This document shows positions 1,374 through 48,600 of a DNA stretch of 64,000 nucleotides, piece by piece (positions within the stretch are counted from its first letter, which is position 1; each line of letters starts with the position of its first letter). The DNA is from an uncultured Bacteroidales bacterium (GTDB lineage: Bacteria; Bacteroidota; Bacteroidia; Bacteroidales; F082), in the NCBI GenBank assembly GCA_947302205.1, contig CAMYVD010000001.1:124001-188000 (forward strand), written 5' to 3'. The notes under the pieces are model-generated. The model was not told the origin of the DNA and did not search any database. It saw nothing but the letters and a program-made list of their open reading frames with translations. The translations under genes were made by a program, and so were the position numbers.

Positions 1374-1411
1374 TATTTAAAGATTTAAAATTTAAAAATT
1401 CAAAGATTCAA
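1374..1411 (-). repeat. Octamer tandem array in the leader of the NifU-like gene
   Basis: In mRNA sense (minus strand) the leader reads as near-copies of an 8-nt unit, GAATCTTT / GAATTTTT / AAATTTT / AAATCTTT / AAATAACA, ending against the ATG at 1370. The same unit family recurs before hydG at 19845-19876. Confidence 0.75.
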
Positions 1412-1446
1412 ACTGGGGGCAAAGATAAGCATTTTTCTTAAATAAG

Positions 1447-1473
1447 AAAAGCCCCCAAAACTTTGGAGGCTTT
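1447..1473 (-). terminator. Intrinsic terminator of tRNA-Leu
   Basis: On the minus strand AAAGCCTCC pairs with GGGGGCTTT (one mismatch) around an 8-9 nt loop, followed by a T-rich stretch. It lies just downstream of the tRNA 3' end. Confidence 0.75.
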
Positions 1474-1477
1474 CGAG

Positions 1478-1561
1478 TACCGAAGGCCGGGATCGAACCG
1501 GCACGAGTTTAACCTCATCGGTTTTTGAGACCGACGCGTCTACCTATTCCGCCACTTCGGC
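1478..1561 (-). tRNA. tRNA-Leu (anticodon CAA)
   Basis: The 84-nt cloverleaf has acceptor arms GCCGAAG and CTTCGGT (one G-U pair), an anticodon stem TCGGT/ACCGA with loop CTCAAAA, hence anticodon CAA at 1525-1527. The long variable arm fits a class II leucine tRNA reading UUG. The T-arm carries GGTTCGATCC. CCA is not encoded. Confidence 0.97.
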
Positions 1562-1584
1562 ATGGTTTTCAACGAACGAGGCTG

Positions 1585-1592
1585 CAAAATTA
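1585..1592 (-). promoter_or_regulatory. -7 box for tRNA-Leu
   Basis: TAATTTTG on the minus strand matches TAnnTTTG and lies 23 nt before the tRNA 5' end. No clear TTTG -33 box is seen. Confidence 0.6.
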
Positions 1593-1630
1593 CAAAAAAA
1601 TCCATTTATACAACCTTTTTTGAAAAAAAC

Positions 1631-1662
1631 TTTGGCTATCTCATCATAAAGCCGTACCTTTG
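1631..1662 (+). promoter_or_regulatory. Promoter of the prs operon
   Basis: TTTG at 1631-1634 is followed after 20 nt by TACCTTTG at 1655-1662, a good match to the Bacteroides -33/-7 consensus. Transcription would begin near 1667, giving a leader of about 25 nt. Confidence 0.75.
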
Positions 1663-1691
1663 CAGCCCGAAAAAACCAAACTTTTTCAGCG

Positions 1692-2627
1692 ATGTCAGGA
1701 AAATTCGTTTCCATTTTTGCAGGAAGGGCCACCCACGAGTTAGGCGCAAAGATTGCCGAGGCTTACGGTACCCCTCTCGGGAAATCGTCAGTGGTCGAAT
1801 TCTCAGATCACGAATTTCAACCTTCATTTGACGAGAGCATCCGTGGTCATCACGTATTTATCGTGCAGTCCACCATGCCTCCGACTGACAATTTGATGGA
1901 GTTGCTGTTGATGATTGATGCGGCCAAGCGTGCTTCGGCTCACAAAGTCATCGCCGTGATTCCGTATTTCGGATGGGCCCGTCAGGACCGTAAGGACCAG
2001 CCCCGCGTGAGTATCGGTTCCAAGCTCGTGGCCAACATGTTGACCGCGGCCCATGTGGATCGCATCATCACCATGGATCTCCACGCCGACCAGATCCAGG
2101 GCTTCTTCGACATCCCGATGGATGCCTTGTACGCTTCCAGCGTCTTTATCGACCACATCCAAAAGATGAACATCGAGGACTTGCTGATTGCCGCTCCTGA
2201 CCTGGGCGCCTCCAAGCGTGCTTCGGCCTACGCCAAGCGTCTTGGTTGCGACTTGGCCGTGTGTCACAAGCAACGTGCACGTGCCAATGTGGTGGAAAGC
2301 ATGACCCTTATCGGTGATGTGAAAGACAAGAATGTCATCATCTTGGATGATATCATCGACACGGCTGGCACAATCGTCAAGGCTGGTCAGCTGATGATGG
2401 ACCATGGTGCCAAGAGCGTCCGCGCCTTCGCTACCCACGCCGTTTGCAGCGGTCCTGCCATGGAGCGCCTCGACAACTCGGTGTTCAGCGAAGTGGTGGT
2501 CACCGACTCCATTCCGTTGCCTGCCAATGCTTCAAAGAAAATCAAAGTAGTGAGCACTGCGCCTCTGTTCGCCAATGTGATCCGTCGCATCGAGAACTAT
2601 GAGTCGATCAGTTCTCTGTTTAAATAA
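1692..2627 (+). CDS. prs: Ribose-phosphate pyrophosphokinase
   Basis: This enzyme makes PRPP from ribose 5-phosphate and ATP for nucleotide, His and Trp synthesis in the cytosol. At 311 residues it has the normal bacterial length. Visible motifs are the N-terminal FAGRATHELGAKIAE region, the ATP-site segment YFGWARQDRKDQ (near residue 95), MDLHADQIQGFF (near 130) and the PRPP loop DDIIDTAGT (near 219). It is the first gene after a good promoter and is followed at 27 nt by the L25 gene. The order prs-rplY-pth is also common in other bacteria and fits a housekeeping operon. Confidence 0.97.
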   Translation: MSGKFVSIFAGRATHELGAKIAEAYGTPLGKSSVVEFSDHEFQPSFDESIRGHHVFIVQSTMPPTDNLMELLLMIDAAKRASAHKVIAVIPYFGWARQDRKDQPRVSIGSKLVANMLTAAHVDRIITMDLHADQIQGFFDIPMDALYASSVFIDHIQKMNIEDLLIAAPDLGASKRASAYAKRLGCDLAVCHKQRARANVVESMTLIGDVKDKNVIILDDIIDTAGTIVKAGQLMMDHGAKSVRAFATHAVCSGPAMERLDNSVFSEVVVTDSIPLPANASKKIKVVSTAPLFANVIRRIENYESISSLFK

Positions 2628-2654
2628 CCTTTTTATCATTAAATCATTCAAACC

Positions 2655-3230
2655 ATGAAAACCATCTCATTGAGCGGTTCTCTTCGCGAGAACGTAGGGA
2701 AAAAAGATGCAAAGGCTTTGCGTAAAGCCGAATTGGTGCCGTGCGTCCTTTATGGCGGCGAAGATCAGATCCATTTTGCCACTGAAGCCAAGAACTTCAA
2801 GAAGATCCTCTTCACCCCTGAGACCTTCATCATCAACATCACCATCAACGGCAAGTCCTACAACACCATCCTTCAGGATGTGCAGTATCACCCTGTGACT
2901 GACGCCGTTCTGCACGCTGACTTCCTCCTGGTGCAGGAAAACAAGCCCATCACCGTCACACTGCCTATCGCCATTGAAGGCTCAGCCCCTGGCGTCATGC
3001 GCGGTGGTAAGCTGAAACAGGCTGTCCGTAAGATCAAGGTCTGCGGTCTGGCTAAGGACCTCCCGGAAATCATCACCGTCAACATCAGCAACCTCAACAT
3101 CCTTGACTCCATCAAGGTTCGCAACCTCAACATTGAGGGCGTGACCATGGTTACCCCTGGTTACCAAGTTATCGTCGAGGTCCGTGCCGCTCGTGGCGCT
3201 GCTGCTGCAACGGAAGAGACTGAAGAGTAA
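2655..3230 (+). CDS. rplY: 50S ribosomal protein L25 (general stress protein Ctc form)
   Basis: This 191-residue protein is the long, two-domain (TL5/Ctc) form of L25, which binds 5S rRNA in the large subunit. The N-terminal 5S-binding domain (residues 1-90) includes LRKAELVPCVLYGGE; the C-terminal beta domain (95-185) includes the GVMRGGKLKQAVRKIKV segment typical of Ctc. An acidic tail (ATEETEE) ends the protein. The gene lies between prs and pth in the same direction. Confidence 0.95.
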   Translation: MKTISLSGSLRENVGKKDAKALRKAELVPCVLYGGEDQIHFATEAKNFKKILFTPETFIINITINGKSYNTILQDVQYHPVTDAVLHADFLLVQENKPITVTLPIAIEGSAPGVMRGGKLKQAVRKIKVCGLAKDLPEIITVNISNLNILDSIKVRNLNIEGVTMVTPGYQVIVEVRAARGAAAATEETEE

Positions 3231-3251
3231 TTATTTATTAATGAATCATTC

Positions 3252-3281
3252 CGTAGAGACGGTGCATGCACCGTCTCTACG
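3252..3281. repeat. 30-bp perfect palindrome (REP-like)
   Basis: The arm CGTAGAGACGGTGCA is followed at once by its exact reverse complement. It sits in the 65-nt gap between rplY and pth. Palindromes beginning GTAGAGACG are a familiar dispersed type in Bacteroidota and cyanobacteria; no second copy is seen in this window. As RNA it could fold into a strong hairpin, but no T-run follows. Confidence 0.85.
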
Positions 3282-3295
3282 TTGTATAAAAACCA

Positions 3296-3853
3296 ATGAA
3301 ATACCTGATCGCCTGCCTTGGTAACATCGGAGTCGAGTACGAAAACACTCGACACAATGCCGGTTTTCGTATCGCCGATCGGCTTGCCAAGGACCTGGAG
3401 GCGACTTTCACCACTAGCCGTTTGGCCCAAGTCGCGGAAATCAAATTCAGAGGTAAGACGCTGGTTTTGATCAAGCCGACCACCTACATGAACCTCAGCG
3501 GCAAAGCGGTGAAATATTGGTTGGATCAGGAAAAGATTCCGTTGGAGAATCTTTTGGTCGTCAATGACGACATCGCCTTGCCCGTGGGCACCATCCGCAT
3601 GCGAAAGCAAGGTGCTGACGGCGGACATAACGGGCTTACCGACATCATCGAGAAACTGGGCACCAATGCCTTCTGCCGCTTGCGTTTTGGCATTGGTGAC
3701 AACTTCGCCCGAGGCCATCAGATCGACTTTGTCTTGGGAGAATGGAAACCTTCAGAGGAACCTGTGGTAGACCAAACCGTCGATAAAGCGGTTGAGGCCA
3801 TCAAGAGTTTTGTCGTTCAAGGTCCGGACAGGACGATGAATCAGTTCAATTAA
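3296..3853 (+). CDS. pth: Peptidyl-tRNA hydrolase
   Basis: Pth frees tRNA from peptidyl-tRNAs that drop off ribosomes. The 185-residue protein has the bacterial length and the key residues: Asn10 in LGN, catalytic His20 in NTRHNAGF, Asp in VVNDDIALP (near 93) and GGHNGL (near 112). It follows rplY across the palindrome-bearing spacer and is followed at 30 nt by a lipoprotein gene whose leader is a heptamer array. Confidence 0.97.
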   Translation: MKYLIACLGNIGVEYENTRHNAGFRIADRLAKDLEATFTTSRLAQVAEIKFRGKTLVLIKPTTYMNLSGKAVKYWLDQEKIPLENLLVVNDDIALPVGTIRMRKQGADGGHNGLTDIIEKLGTNAFCRLRFGIGDNFARGHQIDFVLGEWKPSEEPVVDQTVDKAVEAIKSFVVQGPDRTMNQFN

Positions 3854-3881
3854 GAAGTCGGAAGACAGGAGACAGAAGTAA
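3854..3881 (+). repeat. Heptamer tandem array before the lipoprotein gene
   Basis: Four 7-nt units run GAAGTCG, GAAGACA, GGAGACA, GAAGTAA, ending 2 nt before the ATG at 3884. The array fills the gap from the pth stop codon to the start codon. Confidence 0.8.
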
Positions 3882-3883
3882 GA

Positions 3884-4927
3884 ATGAAGAAGAGATTTAC
3901 ATTTGTTTTCCTGATGGCTCTTTTCCTGGTCTCGTGCAGCACCAAGGTCGATATCTACGCCGATTATAAGGAGATTCCCGTGGTTTATGGCCTTATTGAA
4001 GCTGAGGCTGACACGAATTTCGTTAAAATCACCAAGGCGTTTTGCGGCAATAACGACAATCCCATCAATGCTTTGGAAGTGGCCCAGATTTACGATTCCA
4101 GTGAATATCCGGGCAAACTCGACGCCTTTATTGTGGAGTTGAAAAGCAATTACGGTCAGTCGTATCATCCTACGGGTCGCAAGTTTGATCTTGATACCTT
4201 GACCTTGCACGACAAAAAGGAAGGGCTGTTTTATTCACCCCTTCAGAAAGTCTATTACACGAGGGAGCGTTTCAATGTCAACCATGGCACGGAAAGGTAT
4301 CGTTACAAACTTTATGTGGTAAAGCCTGATTCCGACACGGTTACCGCTGAGACGGGCGTTGTGGGTGGCGACGTTAGGGTGGGTCAGACCCAGGTTAGTT
4401 TTCAATCCGCACCAACCGAAGCGGTTTCAAGCTTGATCTTTTCCTCGACGGAGGAAGCCGTGATTTATGAAATCGGGATGCAGTTCCGCTACAGGGAAGG
4501 CCATACAGGGCAACCCATGGTCACCAAGGAAGTGCATTGGTCCTTTGGGGCCAGAACGCTTGGCGGGTATGAAAAAGTGGAGAACACGGATGATCTGTAT
4601 CGGGTTTATTATTCGTTGAACACCTTGTTCAACTATTTGGAGAGAGCCATTGGAAATGATACCGTTTGGGATGAAAACCATCCCAACGTGGTTCGCTATA
4701 TGGATGACATGACGGTGTTTATTGCGGCCGCAGGAGAGGATTTCAACAATTATTACCAATACCTTCAATCGAGCCAGAACGGGCTTAGTCTTTCAAGCGA
4801 ATACAGTAATGTCGAGGGTGGCGTTGGCTTGTTTTCGTCACGCCTTTTTGTGAGGAATACGGTGAATCTCTCCCCGAGAACCAAATTCGACCTCTTTAAC
4901 AAGCCGTGGGGATTCAGGGAACAATAG
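3884..4927 (+). CDS. Lipoprotein of unknown function
   Basis: This 347-residue protein starts with a lipoprotein signal ending in LVSC (Cys18), so it should be anchored in the membrane, probably the outer membrane. The rest looks beta-rich and has no motif I can name with confidence; the opening (DYKEIPVVYGLIEAEADTNF) is loosely like the DUF4249 group of Bacteroidota lipoproteins. It follows pth in the same direction, probably by co-transcription. Its 3' end overlaps the convergent methyltransferase gene by 14 nt (4914-4927). Confidence 0.85.
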   Translation: MKKRFTFVFLMALFLVSCSTKVDIYADYKEIPVVYGLIEAEADTNFVKITKAFCGNNDNPINALEVAQIYDSSEYPGKLDAFIVELKSNYGQSYHPTGRKFDLDTLTLHDKKEGLFYSPLQKVYYTRERFNVNHGTERYRYKLYVVKPDSDTVTAETGVVGGDVRVGQTQVSFQSAPTEAVSSLIFSSTEEAVIYEIGMQFRYREGHTGQPMVTKEVHWSFGARTLGGYEKVENTDDLYRVYYSLNTLFNYLERAIGNDTVWDENHPNVVRYMDDMTVFIAAAGEDFNNYYQYLQSSQNGLSLSSEYSNVEGGVGLFSSRLFVRNTVNLSPRTKFDLFNKPWGFREQ

Positions 4928-6086: not shown

Positions 6087-6090
6087 GATC

Positions 6091-6930
6091 CTAACTTTTA
6101 ATGCTCACTTTTCCCAAACCTCTCATTAGTCCATCCCACCATTTTGAAGGTAACAGCCAATGCAGGAACACCAGGCTGTGTGAGCCCATGCCGGTGCGGT
6201 ATCTGGCTTTGGGGTGTCTTCTGTTCACGCCTTTGCAGATGGCCTTGGCAATGACGGAAGGGGGTGACAACAGGCGGCCTCGGGTATAAGTGTATTTCAT
6301 GGCATTGGCCTCGTTGAAAGCGGCCTGCTCGTAGACCGTGCCTTTTGACGATTCCGCAAGATGGTCGGCGGCGATGACGCCCCAATCGGTCCTGATGCCA
6401 CCGGGTTCGATGATCACCACGTCGATGCCAAAGGGCTTCAGTTCCATCCGTAAAGCGTCGCTGAATCCCTCCACGGCAAACTTTGAAACGTGGTACCAGC
6501 CACCGAAATAGAGCGCCAGTTTTCCGGCTATGGAAGCCAGGTTGACGATCCTTCCCGAGCCTTGTTTACGCATGTGCGGGATGACCAATTGGGTCAATCT
6601 CGCCAGTCCGAACACGTTGACTTCCAATTGTTTTCTAGCCTCTTCCATGCTGACGTTCTCCACGGCTCCGAAATAGCCATAGCCGGCGTTGTTCACCAAC
6701 ACGTCAATGCGCCCTTCGGCTTCCAAAACGGCGTTCACCCCTGCAATCATTGAGGCGTCATCGGTCACGTCCATCTTTATGGGTGTGATCCCCAACTCCT
6801 TCAATGGCAACATTTTATCGATTCTGCGCGCGGCACCATAAACCTTGTGCCCTTGTTTGGCCAAGCGAGTCGCCGTGTCGTAACCGATACCGCTGCTGGC
6901 TCCTGTGATTAAGATGACTTTTTGTTTCAT
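6091..6930 (-). CDS. SDR family NAD(P)-dependent oxidoreductase
   Basis: The 279-residue protein has the classical short-chain dehydrogenase layout: cofactor motif TGASSGIG at 10-17, NNAGYG (near 85), catalytic Ser in LASIAG (near 134) and YHVSK (Tyr/Lys near 147). The substrate cannot be read from sequence; close relatives are general oxidoreductases. It is the first gene of the pair with the RlmL-like methyltransferase. A -7 box lies only 4 nt upstream of the ATG, which would make the mRNA nearly leaderless. Confidence 0.92.
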   Translation of the reverse strand: MKQKVILITGASSGIGYDTATRLAKQGHKVYGAARRIDKMLPLKELGITPIKMDVTDDASMIAGVNAVLEAEGRIDVLVNNAGYGYFGAVENVSMEEARKQLEVNVFGLARLTQLVIPHMRKQGSGRIVNLASIAGKLALYFGGWYHVSKFAVEGFSDALRMELKPFGIDVVIIEPGGIRTDWGVIAADHLAESSKGTVYEQAAFNEANAMKYTYTRGRLLSPPSVIAKAICKGVNRRHPKARYRTGMGSHSLVFLHWLLPSKWWDGLMRGLGKVSIKS

Positions 6931-6934
6931 GCTC

Positions 6935-6942: not shown

Positions 6943-7006
6943 TATTTTTTCGGGCTAAAAACATCAAACCAATCCAAGAATTTCTTAATTTAGCCGATTC
7001 TTTTTA

Positions 7007-7027
7007 GAATTGAAAATTGAAAATTAA
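7007..7027 (+). repeat. Heptamer tandem array before gatE
   Basis: Three 7-nt units, GAATTGA, AAATTGA, AAATTAA, end 6 nt before the gatE ATG at 7034. Confidence 0.7.
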
Positions 7028-7033
7028 CGCAAT

Positions 7034-8988: not shown

Positions 8989-10377
8989 ATGGCTGAAGAT
9001 TTTTTCCAAGGATATTGGGGTGCCTCGCTTGAGGTGCTTAAGAAATATAACTGCCGCGTGTGGAGTCAGGCTGAGTGCCAGACCACGGGCGGACTTTTCA
9101 AAGGAACGATTCTGCCTCGCGCCGCTTTCCAGGATGACCAGCACATTGTGATGAAGGTCAACACGGGCTACAACATCGGCGTGGACATCAGCACGATCAC
9201 CAGCATGGTGGAGACGGACTACAAGAAGGCCAATTATCACATTCCAGAGAAGGAATTCCCCTACACCGAAGGTCTTCCTCATGTGAAGCTGCTCGGCACG
9301 GGTGGTACCATCGCCTCGCGCTTGGACTACCGCACGGGAGCTGTGATTCCCGCTTTCTCACCCGGTGAGTTGTATGGCGCTGTGCCAGAGCTGGCTGACA
9401 TCTGCAACCTCGAGACCGAGAAGGTGTTTGCCGTGTTCTCCGAAAACATGTCACCCAAAGAATATATCGCCTTGGCCAAGAAGATTGGCGAGGAGATCCA
9501 AAACGGCATTGAAGGCATCGTTATCGGTCACGGTACCGATACTTTGGCCCACACTGCAGCTGCTTTGACTTTCATGTGCCAGAACCTGCCTGTGCCGATC
9601 GTGTTGGTGGGCTCACAGCGTTCGTCTGACCGTCCTTCATCGGATGCCGCCCTGAACCTGATGCATGCCATGACGGCTGCCGGTCACGGCGACGTGGCCG
9701 AGGTAATGGTCTGCATGTTCGGACCCACCTCCGACGAGTATGGCTTCCTGCATCGTGGTACACGTGTCCGTAAGATGCACTCCAGCTATCGCTCCACCTT
9801 CCGTACCATTGGCGATACGCCGGTGGCTACCGTGGACCGCAAGCGTGGTGTGGTGCCGATCAAGGAGGAATACAACCATCGCCGTCACGACCGTGACGTG
9901 AAGATCATCCCCACTTTTGACGACCGTGTGGCGATCCTTTACTATTATCCTGGCATGAAGCCCGATGTTCTCGATGCTTTGGTTGACAATGGCTACAAGG
10001 GTATCATTTGGGACGGTACTGGACTGGGTCACGTCAACAAGGGTATGTTCGATGCCATCCAGCGTGCTACCGACAAGGGCGTTCACCAGTACATGTGCGT
10101 CCAGACCATTTGGGGTTATGCCCACATGTTCGTGTACGACACGGGTCGTGACCTGATGAACCGTGGCATCATCCCGGCAGGCAATATGCTGGCTGAGACA
10201 GCCTACATCAAGTTGGGTTGGGCTTTGGGCCAGACTCACGATAGGGAAGAGGTGAAGAAGATCATGCTCACCCCAATCAACAGTGAGATCACTCCTCGTG
10301 AGCCTTACAACGGCTACCTCGTCTATCAAGGCGGAGTGCCTGAAGTGGATGAGTTCGTTCGCAAGGTGCATAAGTAA
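8989..10377 (+). CDS. gatD: Glu-tRNA(Gln) amidotransferase subunit D (archaeal-type GatD)
   Basis: GatD is the asparaginase-like subunit that frees ammonia for GatE. The 462-residue protein has an N-terminal domain of about 90 residues absent from plain asparaginases, then a type I asparaginase fold with LLGTGGTIAS (101-110) and HGTDT (181-185), which supply the catalytic Thr and Thr-Asp pairs. The length and the extra N-terminal domain separate it from AnsA. It directly follows gatE and is closed by a strong terminator, so the pair is a two-gene operon. Confidence 0.93.
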   Translation: MAEDFFQGYWGASLEVLKKYNCRVWSQAECQTTGGLFKGTILPRAAFQDDQHIVMKVNTGYNIGVDISTITSMVETDYKKANYHIPEKEFPYTEGLPHVKLLGTGGTIASRLDYRTGAVIPAFSPGELYGAVPELADICNLETEKVFAVFSENMSPKEYIALAKKIGEEIQNGIEGIVIGHGTDTLAHTAAALTFMCQNLPVPIVLVGSQRSSDRPSSDAALNLMHAMTAAGHGDVAEVMVCMFGPTSDEYGFLHRGTRVRKMHSSYRSTFRTIGDTPVATVDRKRGVVPIKEEYNHRRHDRDVKIIPTFDDRVAILYYYPGMKPDVLDALVDNGYKGIIWDGTGLGHVNKGMFDAIQRATDKGVHQYMCVQTIWGYAHMFVYDTGRDLMNRGIIPAGNMLAETAYIKLGWALGQTHDREEVKKIMLTPINSEITPREPYNGYLVYQGGVPEVDEFVRKVHK

Positions 10378-18428: not shown

Positions 18429-18701
18429 ATGGAAAAGAGAATAGGAACCGTCATCATCTATGTCGGTGACCGTCAATCGGCACCGCAACTGAATGAAGTG
18501 TTGTCGCGTCATGCCGACATCATCATCTGCCGTCAGGGCTTCCCAAGACAAGATTACAGTTTGATTTCCGTGGTGTTTGAAGGCACTACTGACCGCATTG
18601 GCTCGCTCACCGGCCAATTGGGCCGCATCGAAGGTATTGAGGTGAAATCCGCCTTGTTGAAATCCAAAGATAACTACCAACTTCCAACTCCCAACTGCTA
18701 A
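18429..18701 (+). CDS. TM1266-family iron-only hydrogenase system putative regulator
   Basis: This 90-residue protein matches the small ACT-like TM1266 family (VIIYVGDRQSAPQLNEVLSR near the start), found beside [FeFe]-hydrogenase maturation genes and proposed to regulate them. It is the first gene of the hydF-hydG operon. The last residues (YQLPTPNC) are encoded by a heptamer array (18677-18704) that runs up to the hydF ATG, so the natural family C-terminus has probably been replaced or extended by repeat sequence. Confidence 0.85.
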   Translation: MEKRIGTVIIYVGDRQSAPQLNEVLSRHADIIICRQGFPRQDYSLISVVFEGTTDRIGSLTGQLGRIEGIEVKSALLKSKDNYQLPTPNC

Positions 18702-18704
18702 CTC
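18677..18704 (+). repeat. Heptamer tandem array at the TM1266/hydF junction
   Basis: Four 7-nt units, CCAACTT, CCAACTC, CCAACTG, CTAACTC, end exactly at the hydF ATG (18705). The array encodes the end of the upstream protein and contains its TAA stop. The same unit lies inside asd (37347-37384). Confidence 0.9.
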
Positions 18705-19862
18705 ATGTCAAAATCCCTCGCTCCTCATATTGGCATCTATGGCCGCACCAACAGCGGCAAGAGCTCCCTCATCAACAAGTTGACGGGACAGCACATCGCC
18801 ATTGTATCTGACCAAGCGGGTACCACCACCGATCCTGTGAAGAAATCCATGGAGATTTTCGGCATCGGGCCCGTGGTTTTGATTGACACCGCTGGCATTG
18901 ACGACACTTCGGAACTCGGGAAACAAAGGGTGGAGAAGACCTATCAGACCCTCAAAGAGATTGATGGTGCCATTCTTGTTGTCGCTGACAATCATTACGG
19001 TGAACCAGAAACCCGTCTGATTGAGAAGTTCAAGGAATACGACATCCCGTTTGTCATGGTCAACAACCTGTTTGATGGTGTTTCCTGCAACGAAGCGATC
19101 AATCTCAATGTGCTTCAAGATGACCTGCAACCGGTGGTTGAAGCCTTGAAAAAAGCCATTCCCGAAAGCGCTTATAAGAAAACGTCCATGCTGGGTGGTA
19201 TCGTGAAACCCAACGACGTGGTGGTGTTGGTGACGCCCATTGACGCTGAAGCCCCGGAAGGGCGCCTGATCCTGCCCCAGGTGATGGCCATCCGCAACGC
19301 CCTCGACAACGACTGCATCTGCGTGGTTTTGAAAGAGACCAACCTCCAGCAATACTTCGACACCATGCCGCATCCTAACCTTGTGGTCACGGACTCACAA
19401 GCCTTTGCCATGGTCAGCAAGATCGTTCCCGAAACAGTGGGGCTCACCAGTTTCAGCATCCTTTTGGCAAGGCTGAGAGGCGATTTCGAGAACTACCTGA
19501 AAGGCACACCGCATCTGGCTGAGCTGAAAGACGGCGACAAGATCCTCATGCTTGAATCCTGCACCCATGAAATCAGCTGCGGTGACATCGGCCGGGTGAA
19601 GCTGCCCGCCTTGATCCGCAAATTCACTGGTAAGAACATCCAGTTCGACTATGTGGCCGGGCTGGCACCCATAGATCATATAGAGCAATACGCCATGGCC
19701 ATCCAATGCGGAGGCTGCGTGGCAACCCGCAAACAACTCCTCAATCGCACCAACCTCGCTGTCAAGGCAGGCATTCCCATTTCCAATTATGGCATGGCCA
19801 TCGCGTATATCACTGGAGTTTTCGATAGGGTTATTTCGCCTTTTAAATCTTTGAATCTTTAA
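18705..19862 (+). CDS. hydF: [FeFe]-hydrogenase maturation GTPase HydF
   Basis: HydF is the scaffold that receives the 2Fe subcluster and delivers it to the hydrogenase. The 385-residue protein has an N-terminal GTPase domain with GRTNSGKSS (13-21) and DTAGIDD (near 65), a dimerisation domain, and a C-terminal cluster domain with ESCTHEISCGDIGR (near 285) and QCGGC (near 330) as probable [4Fe-4S] ligands. The final residues (KSLNL) are encoded by the octamer repeat that leads into hydG. No hydE is seen nearby. Confidence 0.95.
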   Translation: MSKSLAPHIGIYGRTNSGKSSLINKLTGQHIAIVSDQAGTTTDPVKKSMEIFGIGPVVLIDTAGIDDTSELGKQRVEKTYQTLKEIDGAILVVADNHYGEPETRLIEKFKEYDIPFVMVNNLFDGVSCNEAINLNVLQDDLQPVVEALKKAIPESAYKKTSMLGGIVKPNDVVVLVTPIDAEAPEGRLILPQVMAIRNALDNDCICVVLKETNLQQYFDTMPHPNLVVTDSQAFAMVSKIVPETVGLTSFSILLARLRGDFENYLKGTPHLAELKDGDKILMLESCTHEISCGDIGRVKLPALIRKFTGKNIQFDYVAGLAPIDHIEQYAMAIQCGGCVATRKQLLNRTNLAVKAGIPISNYGMAIAYITGVFDRVISPFKSLNL

Positions 19863-19876
19863 ATCTTTAAAACTTT
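19845..19876 (+). repeat. Octamer tandem array at the hydF/hydG junction
   Basis: Four 8-nt units, AAATCTTT, GAATCTTT, AAATCTTT, AAAACTTT, cover the last codons and stop of hydF and end 7 nt before the hydG ATG. Same unit family as at 1374-1411. Confidence 0.85.
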
Positions 19877-35939: not shown

Positions 35940-36893
35940 TTATTTGCTATGGTTAGGCAAAGATAAGATTATTTTTGACTTTTCCCGGTCTTGGTGCAAT
36001 TGATTTTTCAAAGCCTCCAAGCCGTTGAATTTCACTTCGTCGCGGATGCGGTCGATGAACCATACTTTCAAGGTCTTTCCATAAAGGTCACCGTCGAAGT
36101 CGAAAACATTGACCTCGATGATGAAATCGCCGTCGGCACGGTCGCCGATGGTGGGACGGGTACCCGTGTTGGCCATGGCGTCGTAGCGTTTGCCGTCAAT
36201 CTCGGTGCGACAGGCATACACTCCTGGGTTGTTGATCATCATGAACTCGTTGGGAATGTCGAGGTTGGCGGTGGGGAAGCCGATGGTGCGACCGATCTCA
36301 TTGCCGCGAACCACACTACCTGTCACGGAATAAGGATACCCCAATAGCTCGTTGGCGGCCTTCACATTGCCCGTCCACAGGAAGTTGCGGATCTTGGTGG
36401 AGCTGACGGCCACCTCGTGGATGTCCTGCGCCTCCACCTGAACGGTCTTGAAGCCGTATTTTGTACCTAACTCATTGAGCATCTGGAAGTCGCCCATGCG
36501 GTTTTTGCCAAAGTGATGGTCATAACCGACCACGATGACGGCGGGATGGATGCGCTCGATGATGTAATCCTTGATGAACTCGTCAGAGGGCGTGCTGGCA
36601 AACTCCTTGGTGAAGGGTATGATCACTACGTTGTCGATGCCAAACTCCTCGAATTTCTTCAATTTTTCTTCCTGTGAGCAGATGAAACGAAGCTTCTCGG
36701 TACCGATGGCCAACACCTGACGGGGATGAGGGTGAAAGGTAACCACCACAGTCTCGCCATGCACTTGGTCAGCCAACCGGCGCATCTCCTTGAAGATGGC
36801 CTGATGGCCGAGGTGCACACCGTCGAAGGTGCCGATGGTGACCACGGCGTTTTTGATGTTGCGGGCTTGTATAGCGTTGTTTATGATTTTCAT
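35940..36893 (-). CDS. ribF: Bifunctional riboflavin kinase/FAD synthetase
   Basis: RibF makes FMN and then FAD from riboflavin. The 317-residue protein has an N-terminal nucleotidyl transferase domain with IGTFDGVHLGHQAIF (about 21-35) and a C-terminal flavokinase domain with GRTIGFPTANLDIP (near 205). It overlaps the asd stop by 4 nt (ATGA), so it is translated behind asd. A promoter for the next gene lies inside its last codons. No FMN riboswitch is seen upstream. Confidence 0.95.
   Translation of the reverse strand: MKIINNAIQARNIKNAVVTIGTFDGVHLGHQAIFKEMRRLADQVHGETVVVTFHPHPRQVLAIGTEKLRFICSQEEKLKKFEEFGIDNVVIIPFTKEFASTPSDEFIKDYIIERIHPAVIVVGYDHHFGKNRMGDFQMLNELGTKYGFKTVQVEAQDIHEVAVSSTKIRNFLWTGNVKAANELLGYPYSVTGSVVRGNEIGRTIGFPTANLDIPNEFMMINNPGVYACRTEIDGKRYDAMANTGTRPTIGDRADGDFIIEVNVFDFDGDLYGKTLKVWFIDRIRDEVKFNGLEALKNQLHQDREKSKIILSLPNHSK
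35958..35965 (-). promoter_or_regulatory. -7 box of the C69 peptidase gene, inside ribF
   Basis: TATCTTTG on the minus strand within the last codons of ribF, 35 nt before the C69 start codon. No clear -33 box. Confidence 0.55.
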
Positions 36894-37900
36894 AAAATGT
36901 TTTCAATGATGTATTTGGCAATCTGAACGGCATTGGTGGCGGCGCCTTTGCGGATGTTGTCGCTGACCACCCAGAGGTTCAAACCGTTGGCGACGCTGAA
37001 GTCGCGACGAATGCGGCCTACAAAGACCTCGTCTTTATCGTACGAAGTGATGGCCATCGGATAAAGATTTTGGGTGGGATCGTCCTGAACCACCACGCCT
37101 GGTTGTTGTTCCAACAGCCGGCGCACTTCATCCAACTCAAAAGGTCTGTTGAACTCCACGTTGACAGCTTCGGAATGCCCTCCGGTGACGGGAACCCTGC
37201 ACACGGTAGCGGTGACGGCGATTTGCGGTGCCCTCAGAATCTTGCGGGTTTCGTTGACCAGTTTCTCTTCCTCGGTAGTGTAGCCGTTGTCGCAAAAATC
37301 GCCGCCGTGAGGCAGAACGTTGCGATAAATGGGGTGGGGATAGGCGTTGGGGAGTTGGGAGTTGGGAGTTGGGAGTTGGAAGTTTTTTGCTTCCTCGCGA
37401 TCCAACTGTGCGATGCCCTTGAGTCCGCTGCCGCTGACGCTCTGGTAGGTGGCAATCACCAACCTTTTGATGTCAAAAGCCTTATGCAATGGATTCAGGG
37501 CCAATACCATCTGAATCGTTGAGCAGTTGGGGTTGGCGATGATGTGGGTGTCCTTGGTGATGGTGTCGGCGTTGATCTCAGGCACTACCAACGGAATCTC
37601 GGGAAACATGCGCCAGGCGGAACTGTTGTCGATGACGTAGGTGCCTTTGGCGGCAAACAGAGGGGCATATTGCTTCGATGCGCTCGCTCCGGCCGAGAAG
37701 ATGGCGATGTCGGGACAGGCCTCGATGGCATCCTCTACCCGAACCACAGGGTGCGTTTTCCCCTGAAAAACGATTGTTTTGCCCACGGATCTTTCTGAAG
37801 CGGCAACAATCAGTTCGTCGATTTTAATCTTCTGTTCATCAAGAACTTGAAGCATCTTTGATCCTACCAATCCTGTGGCACCAACAACAGTGATTCTCAT
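36890..37900 (-). CDS. asd: Aspartate-semialdehyde dehydrogenase with a repeat-encoded insert
   Basis: Asd makes aspartate semialdehyde for Lys, Met, Thr and cell-wall diaminopimelate. The 336-residue protein has VVGATGLVGSKML at the start and the catalytic Cys126 in NPNCSTIQ. Residues 172-186, between LDREEA and YPHPIYRNV, read KNFQLPTPNSQLPNA and are encoded by a heptamer tandem array (37347-37384). The rest is intact, so the enzyme is probably active and the insert sits in a variable surface loop. It precedes ribF with an ATGA overlap. Confidence 0.95.
   Translation of the reverse strand: MRITVVGATGLVGSKMLQVLDEQKIKIDELIVAASERSVGKTIVFQGKTHPVVRVEDAIEACPDIAIFSAGASASKQYAPLFAAKGTYVIDNSSAWRMFPEIPLVVPEINADTITKDTHIIANPNCSTIQMVLALNPLHKAFDIKRLVIATYQSVSGSGLKGIAQLDREEAKNFQLPTPNSQLPNAYPHPIYRNVLPHGGDFCDNGYTTEEEKLVNETRKILRAPQIAVTATVCRVPVTGGHSEAVNVEFNRPFELDEVRRLLEQQPGVVVQDDPTQNLYPMAITSYDKDEVFVGRIRRDFSVANGLNLWVVSDNIRKGAATNAVQIAKYIIENIL
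37347..37384 (-). repeat. Heptamer tandem array inside the asd coding sequence
   Basis: In coding sense the DNA is about five units of TCCCAAC (equivalent to CCAACTC). Three units make 21 nt, hence the 7-residue peptide period QLPTPNS. Gain or loss of one unit would shift the asd frame. Confidence 0.9.
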
Positions 37901-42042: not shown

Positions 42043-42043
42043 A

Positions 42044-42071
42044 TTCTGACTTCTTACTTCTGTATTCTATA
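42044..42071 (-). repeat. Heptamer tandem array between lspA and gpmA
   Basis: In mRNA sense the units are TATAGAA, TACAGAA, GTAAGAA, GTCAGAA, ending 1 nt before the gpmA ATG. The lspA stop codon lies in the first unit. Confidence 0.8.
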
Positions 42072-42983: not shown

Positions 42984-42994
42984 AACTGTAAGTA

Positions 42995-45900
42995 TTAGGA
43001 TTTCGTTATTTTCATTCTGACATTGACATTGTCGGTGAGTTCATCTTCGAGGATGTTGTCACCTTCAAGCTTGTCAACGATTTGGATGGCGTTGGCCAGG
43101 GTTTCGGAGCAGATGTAGCTGTTGAAGCGTTCCACGGCGGTCTCGATCTTTTCGTTCTTTTTGATGCTGATCACGATGCGGTCGGTGACTTCAAAGCCTG
43201 AGTTCTTACGCAAGGTCTGCACACGGTTGACGATTTCGCGGGCCAGGCCTTCCTCAAACAGCTCTTGGGTGATGGTCATATCCAAGGCCACGGTGAAGTT
43301 GCCTTCGGAGGTGACGGCCCATCCGGGGATGTCCTGGGTGGAGATCAAAGCATCTTCAAGCGTCAGCTCGACATCGACGCCGTCCACATCGAGGTGGGTG
43401 CCGTTGTTCTTCTCGTAAGCGTGGATCTCGTCCTGGGTCATGTTGGCGAAGTAGTTTTGGATCTGCTTCATCTGCTTGCCGTACTTTCTGCCTAAGGTCT
43501 TGAAGTTGGGCTTCACGTTCTTCACCAGAATGTTGTTGTCGGGTGCCAGGAACTCAATGCCCTTGATGTTGACCTCGCTCATGATGAGGTGGGAGATCTT
43601 CTCAAGTTGGCCCTTCATCTCCTCGTTGGCCACAGGAATCATGATCTTCGACAAAGGTTGACGCACGCGGATGTTGGCTTTCTTACGCAGCGAGAGCACC
43701 AGTGATGAAATCAGCTGGGCGGCCTCCATGCGTTCTTCCAAAGCCTTGTCGATGAGCTTGGCGTCGGCCACGGGGAAGTCGGTCAGGTGCACTGACTCTG
43801 CCTTGTTACGGCCGGTGGCGTTGTTGAGGTCGCGATAGAGTTGCTCGCTGAAGAAAGGAGCAATCGGAGAGCTCAGACGGGCTACGGTCTCCAAGCAGGT
43901 GTAAAGGGTTTGGTAAGCCGAGAGCTTGTCCTTGTTATCATCGCTTCTCCAGAAACGGCGGCGTGAGAGGCGCACGTACCAGTTGCTCAGGTGGGCATCC
44001 ACAAAGTCAGCGATGGCACGACCGGCACGGGTAGGCTCGTAGCTCTGGAAAGCATTGTCCACTTCGAGGATCAGCGAGTTCAATTCGGAGAGGATCCAGC
44101 GGTCGATTTCGGGACGCTCAGCGTAGGGCAGGTCGGCCTCTTTATAGTCGAACTTGTCGATATTGGCGTACAGTGCAAAGAAAGCGTAGGTGTTATAAAG
44201 GGTTCCAAAGAACTTGCGACGCACCTCGTCCACGCCAGCCTCGTCGAACTTCAGGTTGTCCCAAGGCTGTGAGTTGGTAATCATGTACCAGCGCACGGCG
44301 TCGGCGCCATATTTCTCGATGACGCCAAACGGATCAACGGCATTGCCCAAACGTTTGGACATCTTGTTGCCGTTCTTGTCGAGCACCAAACCGTTGGAGA
44401 TGACGTTCTTGTAAGCTACGCTGTCAAAGCACATCGTAGCGATGGCGTGCAGGGTAAAGAACCAACCACGGGTCTGGTCCACACCTTCGGCGATGAAGTC
44501 TGCCGGGAACGGAAGACCTGTTTTGTCTCCCATATAGTGGTATTGGGCGTATGGCATAGCGCCTGAATCGAACCAAACATCGATCAAGTCAGGCTCACGG
44601 AACATCTTCTTGCCACTTGCGGAGCAGAGGATGACGCCGTCAATGTAAGGACGGTGGAGGTCAAACTTGGTATAGTCTTCGCTGGCATACGGATTGGTCG
44701 TCATGAAGCCAGCCTTGATGGATTTCTCGATTTCGTTGCGGAGCTCAGCAACGCTGCCGATGCAGATTTCTTCCTTGCCGTCTTCCGTGCGCCAGATGGG
44801 CAGCGGGGTACCCCAGTAGCGTGAACGTGAGAGGTTCCAGTCCACCAGGTTCTCCAGCCAGTTGCCGAAACGGCCGCTACCGGTGGCTTCGGGTTTCCAG
44901 TTGATGGTCTTGTTGAGTTCGATCATGCGGTCTTTGAGGACCGTGGTCTTGATGAACCAGCTGTCCAAAGGATAGTAAAGCACGGGTTTGTCAGTACGCC
45001 AGCAGTGTGGGTAGTTGTGCGTGTGCTTCTCGCTCTTGAAGAGCTTGCCCTGTTCCTTTAGGAGCATCACGATGTCCACGTCGAGGCTCTTGTCCTTTTC
45101 GGTCTTGGTGGGGTCGTAGGCGTTCTTCACAAACTGACCGGCGTAGGGGCGGTAGGCTTCCACGTCCATGCAGTTCTTTACAAACTCGGGGTCGAGATCT
45201 TCAATCAGCCAGAACTTACCTGTGCGGTCCACCATGGGCTGTGGTTTGCCGTCCTTGTCGATCATCTGCAAAGGCGGGATGCCTGCGGCTGCGGCCACAC
45301 GCTTATCGTCGGCACCGAAGGTTGGAGCGATGTGGACGATACCTGTACCGTCCTCCGTGGTGACATAGTCGCCAGGGATGATGCGGAAGGCGCCTTCGCC
45401 TGGGTTGACCCACGGAATCAGCGGCTCGTATGCAATGCCAACAAGGTCCTTGCCCTTGAATTCCTTGACGACTTCAGGAGCTTCCTTGAACATGGTTCCC
45501 ACCAGCGCTTTGGCCATCAGGATGTAGCAAGGTTCCTCGGTGTGGGGGTGTACGGTCTTCAGCAGCACATAGTCGATATTCGGGCCAACGCACAAAGCGG
45601 TGTTGCTCGGAAGGGTCCACGGGGTGGTGGTCCAAGCGATGGCGTAGGTGGTGAGGTCGTTTTCGACTTTCAGCTTGAAGAGGGCCACGCAGGTCAAATC
45701 CTTCACGTCGCGGTAGCAGCCGGGCATGTTCAGTTCGTGCGAGCTGAGACCCGTGCCGGCAGCGGGTGAGTAAGGCTGGATGGTGTAGCCCTTATAGAGC
45801 AAACCTTTGTCGTAGAGGTCCTTCAACAGGAACCATAAAGTCTCAATGTAGTCGTTGGTGAAAGTGATGTAAGGATCGTCTAAGTTGACCCAATAGCCCA

Positions 45901-46315
45901 TCTTGCGGGTGAGGTCGTCCCACAGATCCTTGTATTTCATCACCTCTTCGCGGCAGGCGCGGTTGTAGTCATCCACGCTGATCTTTTTGCCGATATCTTC
46001 TTTGGTAATGCCGAGTTTCTTCTCCACGCCGAGTTCGACAGGCAGGCCATGGGTATCCCAGCCGGCCTTGCGGACGACGTGTTTGCCTTTCAGGGTTTGG
46101 TAGCGGCACACCACGTCCTTGATGGAACGGGCCATCACATGGTGAATGCCTGGGGTGCCGTTGGCGCTCGGTGGGCCTTCGAAGAACACGAAGGAGTTGT
46201 CTTTATCGCGGTTGTCAAGACTCTTCTGGAAGGTGTTGTTCTCCTCCCAGTACTTGCGGATTTCGTTAGCTGTCTCGGTGAGATTCAGCTGCTTATACTC
46301 TTTGTAACTCTGCAT
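42995..46315 (-). CDS. ileS: Isoleucyl-tRNA synthetase
   Basis: The 1106-residue enzyme charges tRNA-Ile and edits Val. It has the HIGH-like motif in PPSANGTPGIHHVMAR (about 49-64), an editing domain, the KMSKR loop in GNKMSKRLGN (near 660) and a C-terminal anticodon-binding domain. The long form and the GIHH variant fit Bacteroidota IleRS. It is the first gene of a five-gene operon (ileS, dksA-like, lspA, gpmA, phosphatase) and has its own -7 box. No T-box is seen. Confidence 0.97.
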   Translation of the reverse strand: MQSYKEYKQLNLTETANEIRKYWEENNTFQKSLDNRDKDNSFVFFEGPPSANGTPGIHHVMARSIKDVVCRYQTLKGKHVVRKAGWDTHGLPVELGVEKKLGITKEDIGKKISVDDYNRACREEVMKYKDLWDDLTRKMGYWVNLDDPYITFTNDYIETLWFLLKDLYDKGLLYKGYTIQPYSPAAGTGLSSHELNMPGCYRDVKDLTCVALFKLKVENDLTTYAIAWTTTPWTLPSNTALCVGPNIDYVLLKTVHPHTEEPCYILMAKALVGTMFKEAPEVVKEFKGKDLVGIAYEPLIPWVNPGEGAFRIIPGDYVTTEDGTGIVHIAPTFGADDKRVAAAAGIPPLQMIDKDGKPQPMVDRTGKFWLIEDLDPEFVKNCMDVEAYRPYAGQFVKNAYDPTKTEKDKSLDVDIVMLLKEQGKLFKSEKHTHNYPHCWRTDKPVLYYPLDSWFIKTTVLKDRMIELNKTINWKPEATGSGRFGNWLENLVDWNLSRSRYWGTPLPIWRTEDGKEEICIGSVAELRNEIEKSIKAGFMTTNPYASEDYTKFDLHRPYIDGVILCSASGKKMFREPDLIDVWFDSGAMPYAQYHYMGDKTGLPFPADFIAEGVDQTRGWFFTLHAIATMCFDSVAYKNVISNGLVLDKNGNKMSKRLGNAVDPFGVIEKYGADAVRWYMITNSQPWDNLKFDEAGVDEVRRKFFGTLYNTYAFFALYANIDKFDYKEADLPYAERPEIDRWILSELNSLILEVDNAFQSYEPTRAGRAIADFVDAHLSNWYVRLSRRRFWRSDDNKDKLSAYQTLYTCLETVARLSSPIAPFFSEQLYRDLNNATGRNKAESVHLTDFPVADAKLIDKALEERMEAAQLISSLVLSLRKKANIRVRQPLSKIMIPVANEEMKGQLEKISHLIMSEVNIKGIEFLAPDNNILVKNVKPNFKTLGRKYGKQMKQIQNYFANMTQDEIHAYEKNNGTHLDVDGVDVELTLEDALISTQDIPGWAVTSEGNFTVALDMTITQELFEEGLAREIVNRVQTLRKNSGFEVTDRIVISIKKNEKIETAVERFNSYICSETLANAIQIVDKLEGDNILEDELTDNVNVRMKITKS

Positions 46316-46342
46316 CTTATTGCTGAACTTGGATTAAAGATG

Positions 46343-46350
46343 CAAAGATA
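46343..46350 (-). promoter_or_regulatory. -7 box of the ileS operon
   Basis: TATCTTTG on the minus strand, 27 nt before the ileS ATG. Confidence 0.7.
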
Positions 46351-46384
46351 CAAAATAAATTTCACTTTTACGATTTTGTGCTTT

Positions 46385-47383
46385 TTATTTTTCAAGGTTG
46401 AGCAGCAATCCACCGCCGTCACCGGTCATGATTTCAGGCAACTTGCCATCCCACTTGCTGATCCATTCCAGTTGGACGATCTTGGGGTTGCTCGACACGG
46501 AGGCGCCTTTGATCTTCAGGGCCTCAGCCTCACCCTCGGCGGTCAGGATCTGGATGTCCTTGTCGATCTCGGCTTGTTTCTTCAGCTCTTCCTTCTGCTT
46601 GGTGACTTCAACCAAGGTGAGGGCCTTCTGTTCTTCAAGCTTCTTTTGGTTCAAAGCAGTCTCGTAATCGCTGTTGTAGTACACCTCGCGGATGTCAATC
46701 TGTTCGAGGAAAAGGTGATATGATTCAATGTCTTTCTTCATCTTTTCGAACACGATGGCTTGAATCTCTTCACGGCTGGTGCTATATACCTGAATAGGAG
46801 TGTATTTACTGGTAGTCAGAGCCAATGCCGACTTCAGTTTGGGCTTGATCACGTTTTCCTCGAGCCAATAGAAACGGCCGTTCTCCTTGCCGTCGGTTTC
46901 CGACACATTGTCGTAGATCCACCAGGCATACTCGGGGTCGATGCGCCATGAGGCACTGATATCGAATCCCATCTTGATACCGTCAATGGTGGGGGTCCAC
47001 ACGGTTTCCGACTGGGTGGCGTCAGCTTTGTATGACTTATAGTTCGGGTCGCTGCGGCTCACGTCGTTGCGCTTGGCGCAGGTATAAACTTGTGCGGTCT
47101 TGTCCATGGTTTGAACTTCGTACCAGGGGAAAATCAGATGCCAACCTGTACTATAGGTCTGGTGTTTTACGCCCGATGGTGTGATCACCACACCGCATTC
47201 CTGAGCGGGGATGATAGTGAGGAAACTGCTGCAAGCCAGGTAAATGACAGGAATGAGCCATAGGAAGATGCTGTTAGCTAAAGGTTTGCCGCCTTTGTTG
47301 CTCTTGCGGATCATGTTGTTGTAGAGCGCTGCCACGATGCTGTAGACGATGGCAATGATAGCGATAGTGTTGAGGATTTTCAT
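46385..47383 (-). CDS. SPFH/prohibitin-domain membrane protein
   Basis: The 332-residue protein has two N-terminal membrane helices (about 4-20 and 38-58), an SPFH/Band 7 domain (about 65-250) and a helical, Lys/Glu-rich region (KLEEQKALTLVEVTKQKEELKKQAEID) typical of prohibitin-like assemblies. Such proteins form membrane rings that organise other proteins or proteases; the partner is unknown. It follows the acyl-CoA dehydrogenase gene after 39 nt, most of it a heptamer array. Confidence 0.85.
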   Translation of the reverse strand: MKILNTIAIIAIVYSIVAALYNNMIRKSNKGGKPLANSIFLWLIPVIYLACSSFLTIIPAQECGVVITPSGVKHQTYSTGWHLIFPWYEVQTMDKTAQVYTCAKRNDVSRSDPNYKSYKADATQSETVWTPTIDGIKMGFDISASWRIDPEYAWWIYDNVSETDGKENGRFYWLEENVIKPKLKSALALTTSKYTPIQVYSTSREEIQAIVFEKMKKDIESYHLFLEQIDIREVYYNSDYETALNQKKLEEQKALTLVEVTKQKEELKKQAEIDKDIQILTAEGEAEALKIKGASVSSNPKIVQLEWISKWDGKLPEIMTGDGGGLLLNLEK

Positions 47384-47385
47384 AT

Positions 47386-47413
47386 CAGTTGGTAGTTTGA
47401 AGTTTTTAGTTGT
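47386..47413 (-). repeat. Heptamer tandem array before the SPFH gene
   Basis: In mRNA sense the units are ACAACTA, AAAACTT, CAAACTA, CCAACTG, ending 2 nt before the ATG at 47383. The unit is related to that at 18677-18704. Confidence 0.8.
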
Positions 47414-47422
47414 TCGGTTTTT

Positions 47423-48565
47423 TTAACATCCAATGGCTCTGGAAATGACCAGTCTTAAGATTTCAGAGGTACCTTCACCGATCTGGAGGATGCGCTGGTC
47501 GCGGTAGAAGCGTTCCATGTCGAACTCTTTAAGGAGCCCATGACCGCCCATCACCTGCACGGCATTGTTGCACACTTCGTCGGCTACTTCAGAGCAGTAA
47601 AGTTTGGCCATGGCGGCCTCTTTGCCGAAGGGACGGTGTTGGTCTTTGAGCCAACAGGCGTGGTAGAGCAGGTTACGTGCGGCCTCTACCTTCACGGCCA
47701 TGTCAGCGAGTTTGAAAGCCACGGCTTGGAACTTACACACGGGTTTGCCGAACTGCACGCGTTTCTTGGAGTAGGCGAGGGCCATCTCATAAGCGCCTTG
47801 GGCGCATCCAAGTCCCATGGCGGCGATGGAGAGTCGACCTGAGTCGAGGGTGGCCAGCATCATGTGGGAGCCTTCCCCGGGCTCGCCTAAGATGCACTCC
47901 TTAGGCAGCCGCACGTTGTCAAAGATGAGCTTGCCGGTGTTGGAGGCACGCCACATCATCTTGTCATCCATCGGGGTTTGGGTGAAGCCTGGAGTGCCGT
48001 TCTCCACCAGCAGGGCGGTGAACTCGGGCTTGCCGTCCTTCTCACCTGAAATGGCCTGCACGCTGGTACCTAAGGTGATCGGCGTGGCGCTGTTGGTGAT
48101 GAAGATCTTGGAGCCGTTGAGCACCCAGGTGTCGCCTTCGAGCTTAGCCGTGGTCTTGGTGCCACGCGAGTCGCTACCAGCGTCTTCCTCGGTGAGACCG
48201 AACCCCCAGAGCTTGTCCTTACACAGCTGAGGTAGGTACTTGCGTTTCTGTTCCTCGGTGCCATAATCCTTGATAGGACCGATACCCAACGAGTTGTCGG
48301 CTGCGATGGTGGCGGCAGTGGAACCGTCCACACGAGCTAACTCCTCCACGGCGATGATGTAACTCAGGTTGTCGAGTCCCTGACCGCCGTATTCCTTCGG
48401 CACGGTCATGCCTAACAGACCGAGTTGACCCATCTTGAGAGTGAGTTCGGTGTCGAAATGTTGATGCTCGTCGTTGTAACGGGCTACTGGTTTTATCTCT
48501 GCTTCAGCGAAGTCACGTACCTTCTGGCGTAAGGCTTCCTGTTTTTTAGTTAAATCGAAATTCAT
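47423..48565 (-). CDS. Acyl-CoA dehydrogenase (short-chain type)
   Basis: This 380-residue flavoenzyme oxidises acyl-CoA to enoyl-CoA. It shows LTEEDAGSD (near 123), the RVQFGKPV segment and YRDQRILQIGEGTSEILR at the C-terminus. The Glu in IGEGTSEI is the catalytic base of short/medium-chain enzymes; isovaleryl-CoA dehydrogenases usually have Gly or Ala there. The neighbour is a MccA/PccA-like biotin carboxylase, which would suggest branched-chain acyl-CoA, but the active site fits straight or 2-methyl acyl-CoA better. An exact five-unit heptamer array lies upstream. Confidence 0.92.
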   Translation of the reverse strand: MNFDLTKKQEALRQKVRDFAEAEIKPVARYNDEHQHFDTELTLKMGQLGLLGMTVPKEYGGQGLDNLSYIIAVEELARVDGSTAATIAADNSLGIGPIKDYGTEEQKRKYLPQLCKDKLWGFGLTEEDAGSDSRGTKTTAKLEGDTWVLNGSKIFITNSATPITLGTSVQAISGEKDGKPEFTALLVENGTPGFTQTPMDDKMMWRASNTGKLIFDNVRLPKECILGEPGEGSHMMLATLDSGRLSIAAMGLGCAQGAYEMALAYSKKRVQFGKPVCKFQAVAFKLADMAVKVEAARNLLYHACWLKDQHRPFGKEAAMAKLYCSEVADEVCNNAVQVMGGHGLLKEFDMERFYRDQRILQIGEGTSEILRLVISRAIGC

Positions 48566-48600
48566 GTTTTTTTAACTTTTATCTCTTATCTTTTATCTTC
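48566..48600 (-). repeat. Intercistronic spacer made of five heptamers
   Basis: The whole 35-nt gap between the carboxylase stop (48601-48603) and the dehydrogenase ATG (48563-48565) is five 7-nt units in mRNA sense: GAAGATA, AAAGATA, AGAGATA, AAAGTTA, AAAAAAC. Confidence 0.85.

Follow-up and report, generated by a model that had tools for sequence, protein, structure and literature searches.

The subject here is a class of short tandem-repeat arrays found in a 64,000-nt stretch of DNA, the window, from an uncultured Bacteroidales bacterium (contig C1, positions 124001-188000). The source assembly, referred to as G000, holds 2.2 Mb in 82 contigs and is 88.6% complete. Nine arrays with a period of 7 or 8 nt lie in the window, eight of them immediately before a start codon and the ninth inside asd (Table 1). 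Arrays of this kind occupy the edges of reading frames and in-frame protein loops, turn over between closely related species, change length by whole units and draw on unit families that are specific to each genome. They are probably a variant of known heptamer repeats: filler with fast turnover that gene edges and loops tolerate.

Heptamer and octamer arrays in the window and the genome

Table 1. Tandem arrays of the window, with the distance to the ATG, for the eight that precede a start codon, from the array end as initially annotated (3881 in the second row).
Position	Strand	Period (nt)	Unit	Distance to ATG (nt)	Context
1374..1411	-	8	TTTGAATC type	3	divergent gap; before ATG of gene 678-1370
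3854..3883	+	7	GAAGACA type	2	occupies entire gap from TAA (ends 3853) to ATG 3884
7003..7027	+	7	GAATTGA type	6	divergent gap; before ATG 7034 of GatB-domain gene
18672..18704	+	7	CCAACTN type	0	codes final residues and stop (18701) of upstream ORF; adjoins hydF ATG 18705
19845..19876	+	8	AATCTTTR	7	includes hydF stop (19862); before ATG 19884 of radical SAM/BATS (hydG-like) gene
37350..37384	-	7	AACTCCC (mRNA sense)		in frame, internal loop of asd (36890-37900)
42044..42071	-	7	AGAAGTN type	1	includes upstream ORF stop (42067); before ATG ending 42042 of histidine phosphatase family gene
47386..47421	-	7	degenerate	2	from acyl-CoA dehydrogenase stop (47423) to Band-7 gene ATG (47383)
48566..48600	-	7	AAAGATA type	0	whole gap from biotin carboxylase stop (48601) to acyl-CoA dehydrogenase ATG (48565)

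An initial annotation, made from the window's letters alone, had described nine arrays of 7- or 8-bp period, eight of them 0-7 nt before an ATG, and the positions, the periods and the excess over shuffles of the same DNA all hold. At the stated period, the match fraction within the arrays is 0.71-0.96, against means of 0.31-0.48 in 1000 dinucleotide shuffles of the same stretches, and for any of the nine at most about one shuffle in 1000 attains the observed value. The upstream stop codon is touched or contained by the arrays at 3854, 18677 (within 18672-18704), 19845, 42044 and 48566, and the 47386 array, after extension by the scan, begins 1 nt from the upstream stop. Only the arrays at 1374 and 7007 (within 7003-7027) have no adjacent stop, and both lie in divergent gaps. 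An automatic scan of noncoding DNA in the window listed five arrays; those at 18677, 19845 and 42044, which straddle a stop codon, were not listed, and the ninth is coding. A Pfam scan of ten proteins left one without a match and identified GatB-domain, hydF, radical SAM/BATS, histidine phosphatase, Band-7, acyl-CoA dehydrogenase, biotin carboxylase and asd products as neighbours; among these ten proteins, no shared function of array-flanking genes was apparent from Pfam.

Since the window stretches were chosen by eye, the unbiased test is a genome sample, made up of the window and 40 further stretches of the source genome (864 kb, 39% of the assembly). Genes were called with a purpose-built dicodon caller, without annotation, and start positions are approximate. 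A strict scan (mismatch penalty 2) loses diverged arrays, so a softer score combined with shuffles was adopted. The tandem-repeat scan against shuffles beyond the window, which the initial annotation had proposed as a check, gave 22 noncoding arrays of period 7 against 0.2 in shuffles (mean of five) and 7 of period 8 against 1.0. With 7-nt units above chance and a mainly intergenic location, the arrays of the source genome agree with heptamer tandem repeats of the STRR/TAACTGA type. Counts at other periods were 0 for period 5 (shuffle mean 0.8), 2 for period 6 (1.0), 3 for period 9 (1.0), 4 for period 10 (0.2) and 14 for period 11 (0.8). Period 11 forms a second repeat class; an 11/22-bp repeat (TTCTTCGTTAG unit) lies at 52766-52840 of the window.

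By gap type, arrays were found in 19 of 197 codirectional gaps of 15-400 nt (shuffle mean 0.70, maximum 2, 30 shuffles), in 4 of 85 divergent gaps (shuffle mean 0.57) and in 1 of 33 convergent gaps (shuffle mean 0.00). Pattern searches in 198 genomes of the phylum gave a patchy distribution, with CAACTNC arrays in 10 and AGAAGNC arrays in 13. The same patterns reversed, as a control, matched 6 and 4 of the 198 genomes, and these searches are poor evidence because the reversed controls also match.

Stop and start codons as anchors

In short operon gaps both the stop and the start lie close to any array, so gaps with slack were used to separate the two. The test took gaps with 20 nt of slack or more and compared them with random placement; an array was counted as abutting when it lay no more than 3 nt from an edge. 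Three congeners (G092, G041 and G051) and a genome of another genus in the same family (G002) were sampled at 200 kb each for array counts, with 520 kb of G092 for the edge test. Arrays in which a single base exceeds 70% (four in G000 and two each in G092, in both samples, G041 and G051) were excluded from the edge, unit, stop-frame and leader tests.

Within slack gaps of the source genome, 5 of 9 arrays abut the stop and none the start (0.8 expected). The same preference appears in G092, where 9 of 21 abut the stop and 2 of 21 the start (1.5 expected); these slack and edge tests are small, at 9 to 21 arrays per genome. The two slack-gap arrays of G051 divide into one at the stop and none at the start. 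Convergent gaps of G092 hold 13 arrays and all 13 abut a stop (3.1 expected). Some of these gaps contain inverted array pairs with one arm behind each stop, and in certain convergent-gap pairs both arms are built on one unit. Put fairly, arrays sit against the edges of reading frames, and in G000 and G092 they do so at stops more than at starts. The start codon is not the main anchor; its proximity is mostly a by-product of short operon gaps.

The sample from G002 holds 18 period-7 arrays in 200 kb, clustered in long gaps, with none at 10 nt or less from a gene edge. Being rich in arrays without edge placement, this genome indicates that having arrays and placing them at edges are two separate traits.

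Turnover at orthologous junctions and loops

The relatives include many Bacteroidales assemblies from rumen and gut, in which acyl-CoA dehydrogenase identity reaches 98%. Of 109 loci considered for the biotin carboxylase/acyl-CoA dehydrogenase junction, 75 were parsed and 34 were left out (no adjacent biotin carboxylase found, reversed, or partial). The 56 close loci, namely 55 with acyl-CoA dehydrogenase identity of at least 86% together with the window, fall into 12 filler classes that include heptamer arrays, heptamer-armed hairpins, REP-like palindromes and no filler. The most frequent are GAATCTT 7/8-mers (15 loci), an AGCTGAA hairpin (10) and GACGCAT palindromes (7), followed by none or other (6), two further palindrome classes (5 and 1), AGAAGTA (4), TTAGAAT (2), AAGATAA (2, the window and L089), inverted GCCAAGA (2), AAAGTGA (1) and AATTCTC (1). 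Classes were assigned by hand-written motif rules, under which the composite gaps L030, L043, L056 and L060 carry a single label and the L079 gap suits TTAGAAT better than its assigned label. Some relatives combine a palindrome and an array within one gap without a defined family (L060, L043). At 77-79% identity, 5 of 6 loci show a 4-base overlap of the two genes, and the sixth has a 5-nt gap.

Parsimony on the tree of the flanking proteins requires 29 class changes, against a label-shuffle mean of 37.1 and minimum of 31 (500 shuffles). Changes are fewer than in every shuffle and yet many, so filler class is partly inherited and very often switched. The closest protein pairs share a filler class in 13 of 30 cases, and in one comparison (L049 with L055) the flanking DNA is 93% and 98% identical on the two sides while the gaps are unrelated. 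Unit-number steps between congeners were observed at this junction and in asd; junction gaps of 91 and 98 nt, for example, differ by one whole unit. The open-licence literature searched yielded no report that heptamer families are exchanged at orthologous junctions of this clade.

Other junctions vary in a similar manner. Upstream of hydF, relatives carry CCAACTN or CTCCTCA-like arrays, GCACCCC palindromes or no array, and downstream of hydF they carry octamers or heptamers. Among the loci L145-L157, a heptamer array stands at the hydF stop in 10 of 12 readable cases, some 220-280 nt away from where hydG starts. At these loci the array and hydG are separated by a conserved stretch of about 200 nt, which may be a regulatory RNA. 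Downstream of acyl-CoA dehydrogenase, 7 of 12 readable loci have arrays (GGAGTGA, GGAATTA, AAGATAA or CTTCTGT) and 5 have none.

Turnover extends into coding sequence. The asd array spans approximately codons 172-184, and in 30 loci (the source genome and its 29 best-scoring relatives from a genus search) this loop holds an insert of 30-96 nt that is in every case a multiple of three. Heptamer arrays make up the insert in 14 of the 30, palindromes in 3 (L195, L197, L198) and other sequence in 13; the heptamer types are CAACTCC, CAACTCT and ACCTCTC, with one array inverted and one degenerate. Loop lengths of 54 and 75 nt differ by 21 nt, or three units. The asd matches of G075, G079, G082 and G107 split near codons 171-188, which is the array loop, and this suggests larger inserts or broken frames there.

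Five more in-frame, mid-gene arrays were found in the source genome (L003, L007, L010, L011 and L014), and its sample contains six coding arrays of period 7 against 0, 1 and 0 in three codon shuffles. The L014 array (9000-9032) is an in-frame heptamer array at the joint between two domains of a single ORF, which by their sequence motifs look like an RNA methyltransferase and a HAD phosphatase. A gene fusion by way of the array is possible.

Origin of the arrays and relation to known repeats

The 51 array units from four genomes are diverse, with many units rather than one defined unit such as TAACTGA. Pairs of units that differ by at most one mismatch make up 69 of 391 pairs within genomes and 50 of 884 between genomes (p=0.0004); for random units the figure is 3.0% of pairs. 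Local slippage alone does not account for the units that unrelated loci of one genome have in common.

These observations are probably best explained by a dispersed, fast-evolving class of heptamer and octamer tandem repeats. Arrays from a genome-specific set of 7-mers would arise at sites that tolerate insertion and would then lengthen or shorten by whole units. As close species diverge, an array could be exchanged for other filler, whether another heptamer family, a heptamer-armed hairpin or a REP-like palindrome. Selection would keep arrays in the least harmful places: right after a stop, within the narrow spaces that separate operon genes, and in protein loops whose inserts are divisible by three. 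Those arrays that lie against starts are A-rich and G-poor, which would leave ribosome access unblocked. We infer that the edge preference is made by selection and not by targeting, and that existing arrays elsewhere in the genome are the source of new ones. One site with many unrelated repeats and palindromes, together with the stop as the tighter anchor in two genomes, suggests a turnover process that precedes any signalling role. The initial annotation had offered a mobile or slippage-prone repeat class that settles at start codons. Family turnover, whole-unit steps and genome-specific units bear out the repeat class; the place where arrays settle proved to be frame edges, mainly stops, and protein loops, and not starts specifically.

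Several results weigh against this explanation. Both edges are favoured in slack gaps of G041, where 4 of 12 arrays abut the stop and 3 of 12 the start (0.7 expected). In divergent gaps, 7 of 11 arrays over four genomes are no more than 10 nt from a start (3/4 in G000, 4/5 in G092, 0/1 in G041 and 0/1 in G051), so with G041 some start-side effect or tolerance exists. The sole convergent array of G000 lies 15 nt from a stop, and neither it nor the sole convergent array of G041 is within 10 nt of one. Array load is uneven within the genus, at 22, 15 and 3 period-7 arrays per 200 kb in G092, G041 and G051, respectively; the source genome has 22 noncoding arrays of this period per 864 kb. Two candidate generators were also considered: a Y1 transposase (Y1_Tnp, PF01797) gave 0 matches in the source genome at 88.6% completeness, while the control matched in 5 of 14, and an RVT_1 reverse transcriptase gave no match in the same incomplete genome.

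A dedicated, previously undescribed process might instead write or paste genome-specific heptamer arrays after stops and into loops, rewriting junctions, C-termini and linkers at roughly the pace of species divergence. Such a process seems unlikely. A generator, if there is one, remodels the junctions of operons as well as the C-termini and loops of proteins in uncultured gut bacteria, and period 7 would be a testable property of it.

Purely local slippage, in which a heptamer at the gene end seeds an array on the spot and nothing is copied from one locus to another, is consistent with arrays that start at gene ends, vary by locus and change in whole units, and with a TTAGAAT unit that is also present in an array-free biotin carboxylase gene end. 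It is nevertheless an improbable sole cause, given that unit sharing is higher among unrelated loci of one genome than between genomes, that a single unit is common to both arms in some convergent gaps, and that palindrome swaps require a different process.

In other bacteria, heptamer repeats just ahead of a start codon have been put forward as signals for translation. In the present arrays, an A-rich, unstructured and periodic leader could direct Bacteroidota ribosomes, which do not use a Shine-Dalgarno sequence, to the start, as the initial annotation had suggested. The placement of all eight window arrays no more than 7 nt from an ATG, the start-proximal arrays of divergent gaps and the start enrichment in slack gaps of G041, equal to that of the stop, are in keeping with such a role. 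Leaders that carry an array no more than 10 nt from the start are also less folded than the others (median -1.40 versus -3.00 kcal/mol, n=25 versus 661, p=0.002), with a mean of -1.81 kcal/mol against -3.88 for AT-matched controls. A-rich, unstructured start contexts are described in a Bacteroidetes species, Flavobacterium johnsoniae, where they boost translation (Baez, 2019; PMC6847099). However, shuffles of the same array leaders average -1.53 kcal/mol, no more structured than the leaders themselves, so that composition and not period keeps array leaders open. A register lock to the ATG was sought and rejected: its sign, maxima of A at -14/-13 and -7/-6, was suggestive with 20 leaders (p=0.05), did not hold up with 42 de-duplicated ones (p=0.12) and was absent in 9 new ones. 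Guidance of start choice by period has most of the evidence against it (stop preference with slack in G000 and G092, convergent and coding arrays, palindrome swaps and the unconfirmed register lock), and it appears very unlikely.

Period-7 or -8 units that contain a stop codon could close all three frames behind a gene and so halt ribosomes that have shifted frame or read through, ahead of the next start, much as TAACTGA repeats yield stops in every frame according to MacGregor (2015; PMC4679880). At +7 from the gene stop, stop triplets are in excess in G092 (13/84, p=0.003) and G041 (12/83, p=0.007), and arrays at stops in G092 close 2.63 frames in sense against 1.11 in antisense. Such a ladder is clear in G092, partial in G041 and weak or absent elsewhere: the source genome gives 17/245 at +7 (p=0.16; +8 p=0.02 and +14 p=0.04, both uncorrected) and 1.07 frames in sense against 1.29 in antisense, G041 arrays close 2.67 against 2.83, neither G051 nor G002 has a +7 excess, and the usual source-genome units GAAGACA and CCAACTC contain no stop. 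As a general explanation of the arrays, it is highly doubtful.

Known repeats resemble the arrays in part. The cyanobacterial STRR heptamers and small dispersed repeats treated by Elhai in 2008 reportedly include short hairpins of 21-27 nt set in heptamer arrays and possibly mobile. They belong to another phylum.

TAACTGA repeats are described just before starts in Beggiatoaceae, with some over stops or in ORFs, and also in cyanobacteria and five Bacteroidetes (MacGregor, 2015; PMC4679880). The arrays described here are likewise short, intergenic and of period 7, with many near starts and some over a stop or inside an ORF. They differ from that description, in which one unit dominates and related heptamers are rare, by their many units and octamers, by the stop as the tighter anchor and by swaps between congeners. 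The GGGAATC/GGGGAYT heptamers of Xanthomonas and Nostoc are mostly found close to a stop if they are on the coding strand, or close to a start if they are on the opposite one, and vary among close species (PMC4692102). Like the present arrays they are intergenic and variable in length, most of them lying on the coding strand no more than 50 bp from the stop of the upstream ORF; unlike them they are G-rich and quadruplex-forming with one family per group, whereas most arrays here are not G-rich.

Small variable segments of bacterial genomes are short intergenic or in-frame intragenic segments that vary at one conserved position, as the arrays do; the content exchanged here differs in being heptamer repeats and palindromes (PMC2884548). 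GTAG-tagged REPs, which lie mostly downstream of coding regions, resemble the palindromic fillers in the junction gaps of relatives (PMC3733652). The window arrays differ from them in being direct tandem repeats rather than GTAG-tagged palindromes, and in the lack of a Y1 transposase match in the source genome. The same paper gives the Bacteroidetes repeats as CGTC, not GTAG (PMC3733652). GTAG is present in 12 of the 13 junction gaps of relatives labelled as palindromic. A dispersed palindrome with GTCATTGCGAGCG...GCAATGACG occurs in two convergent gaps, L010 12248-12336 and L245 19647-19827.

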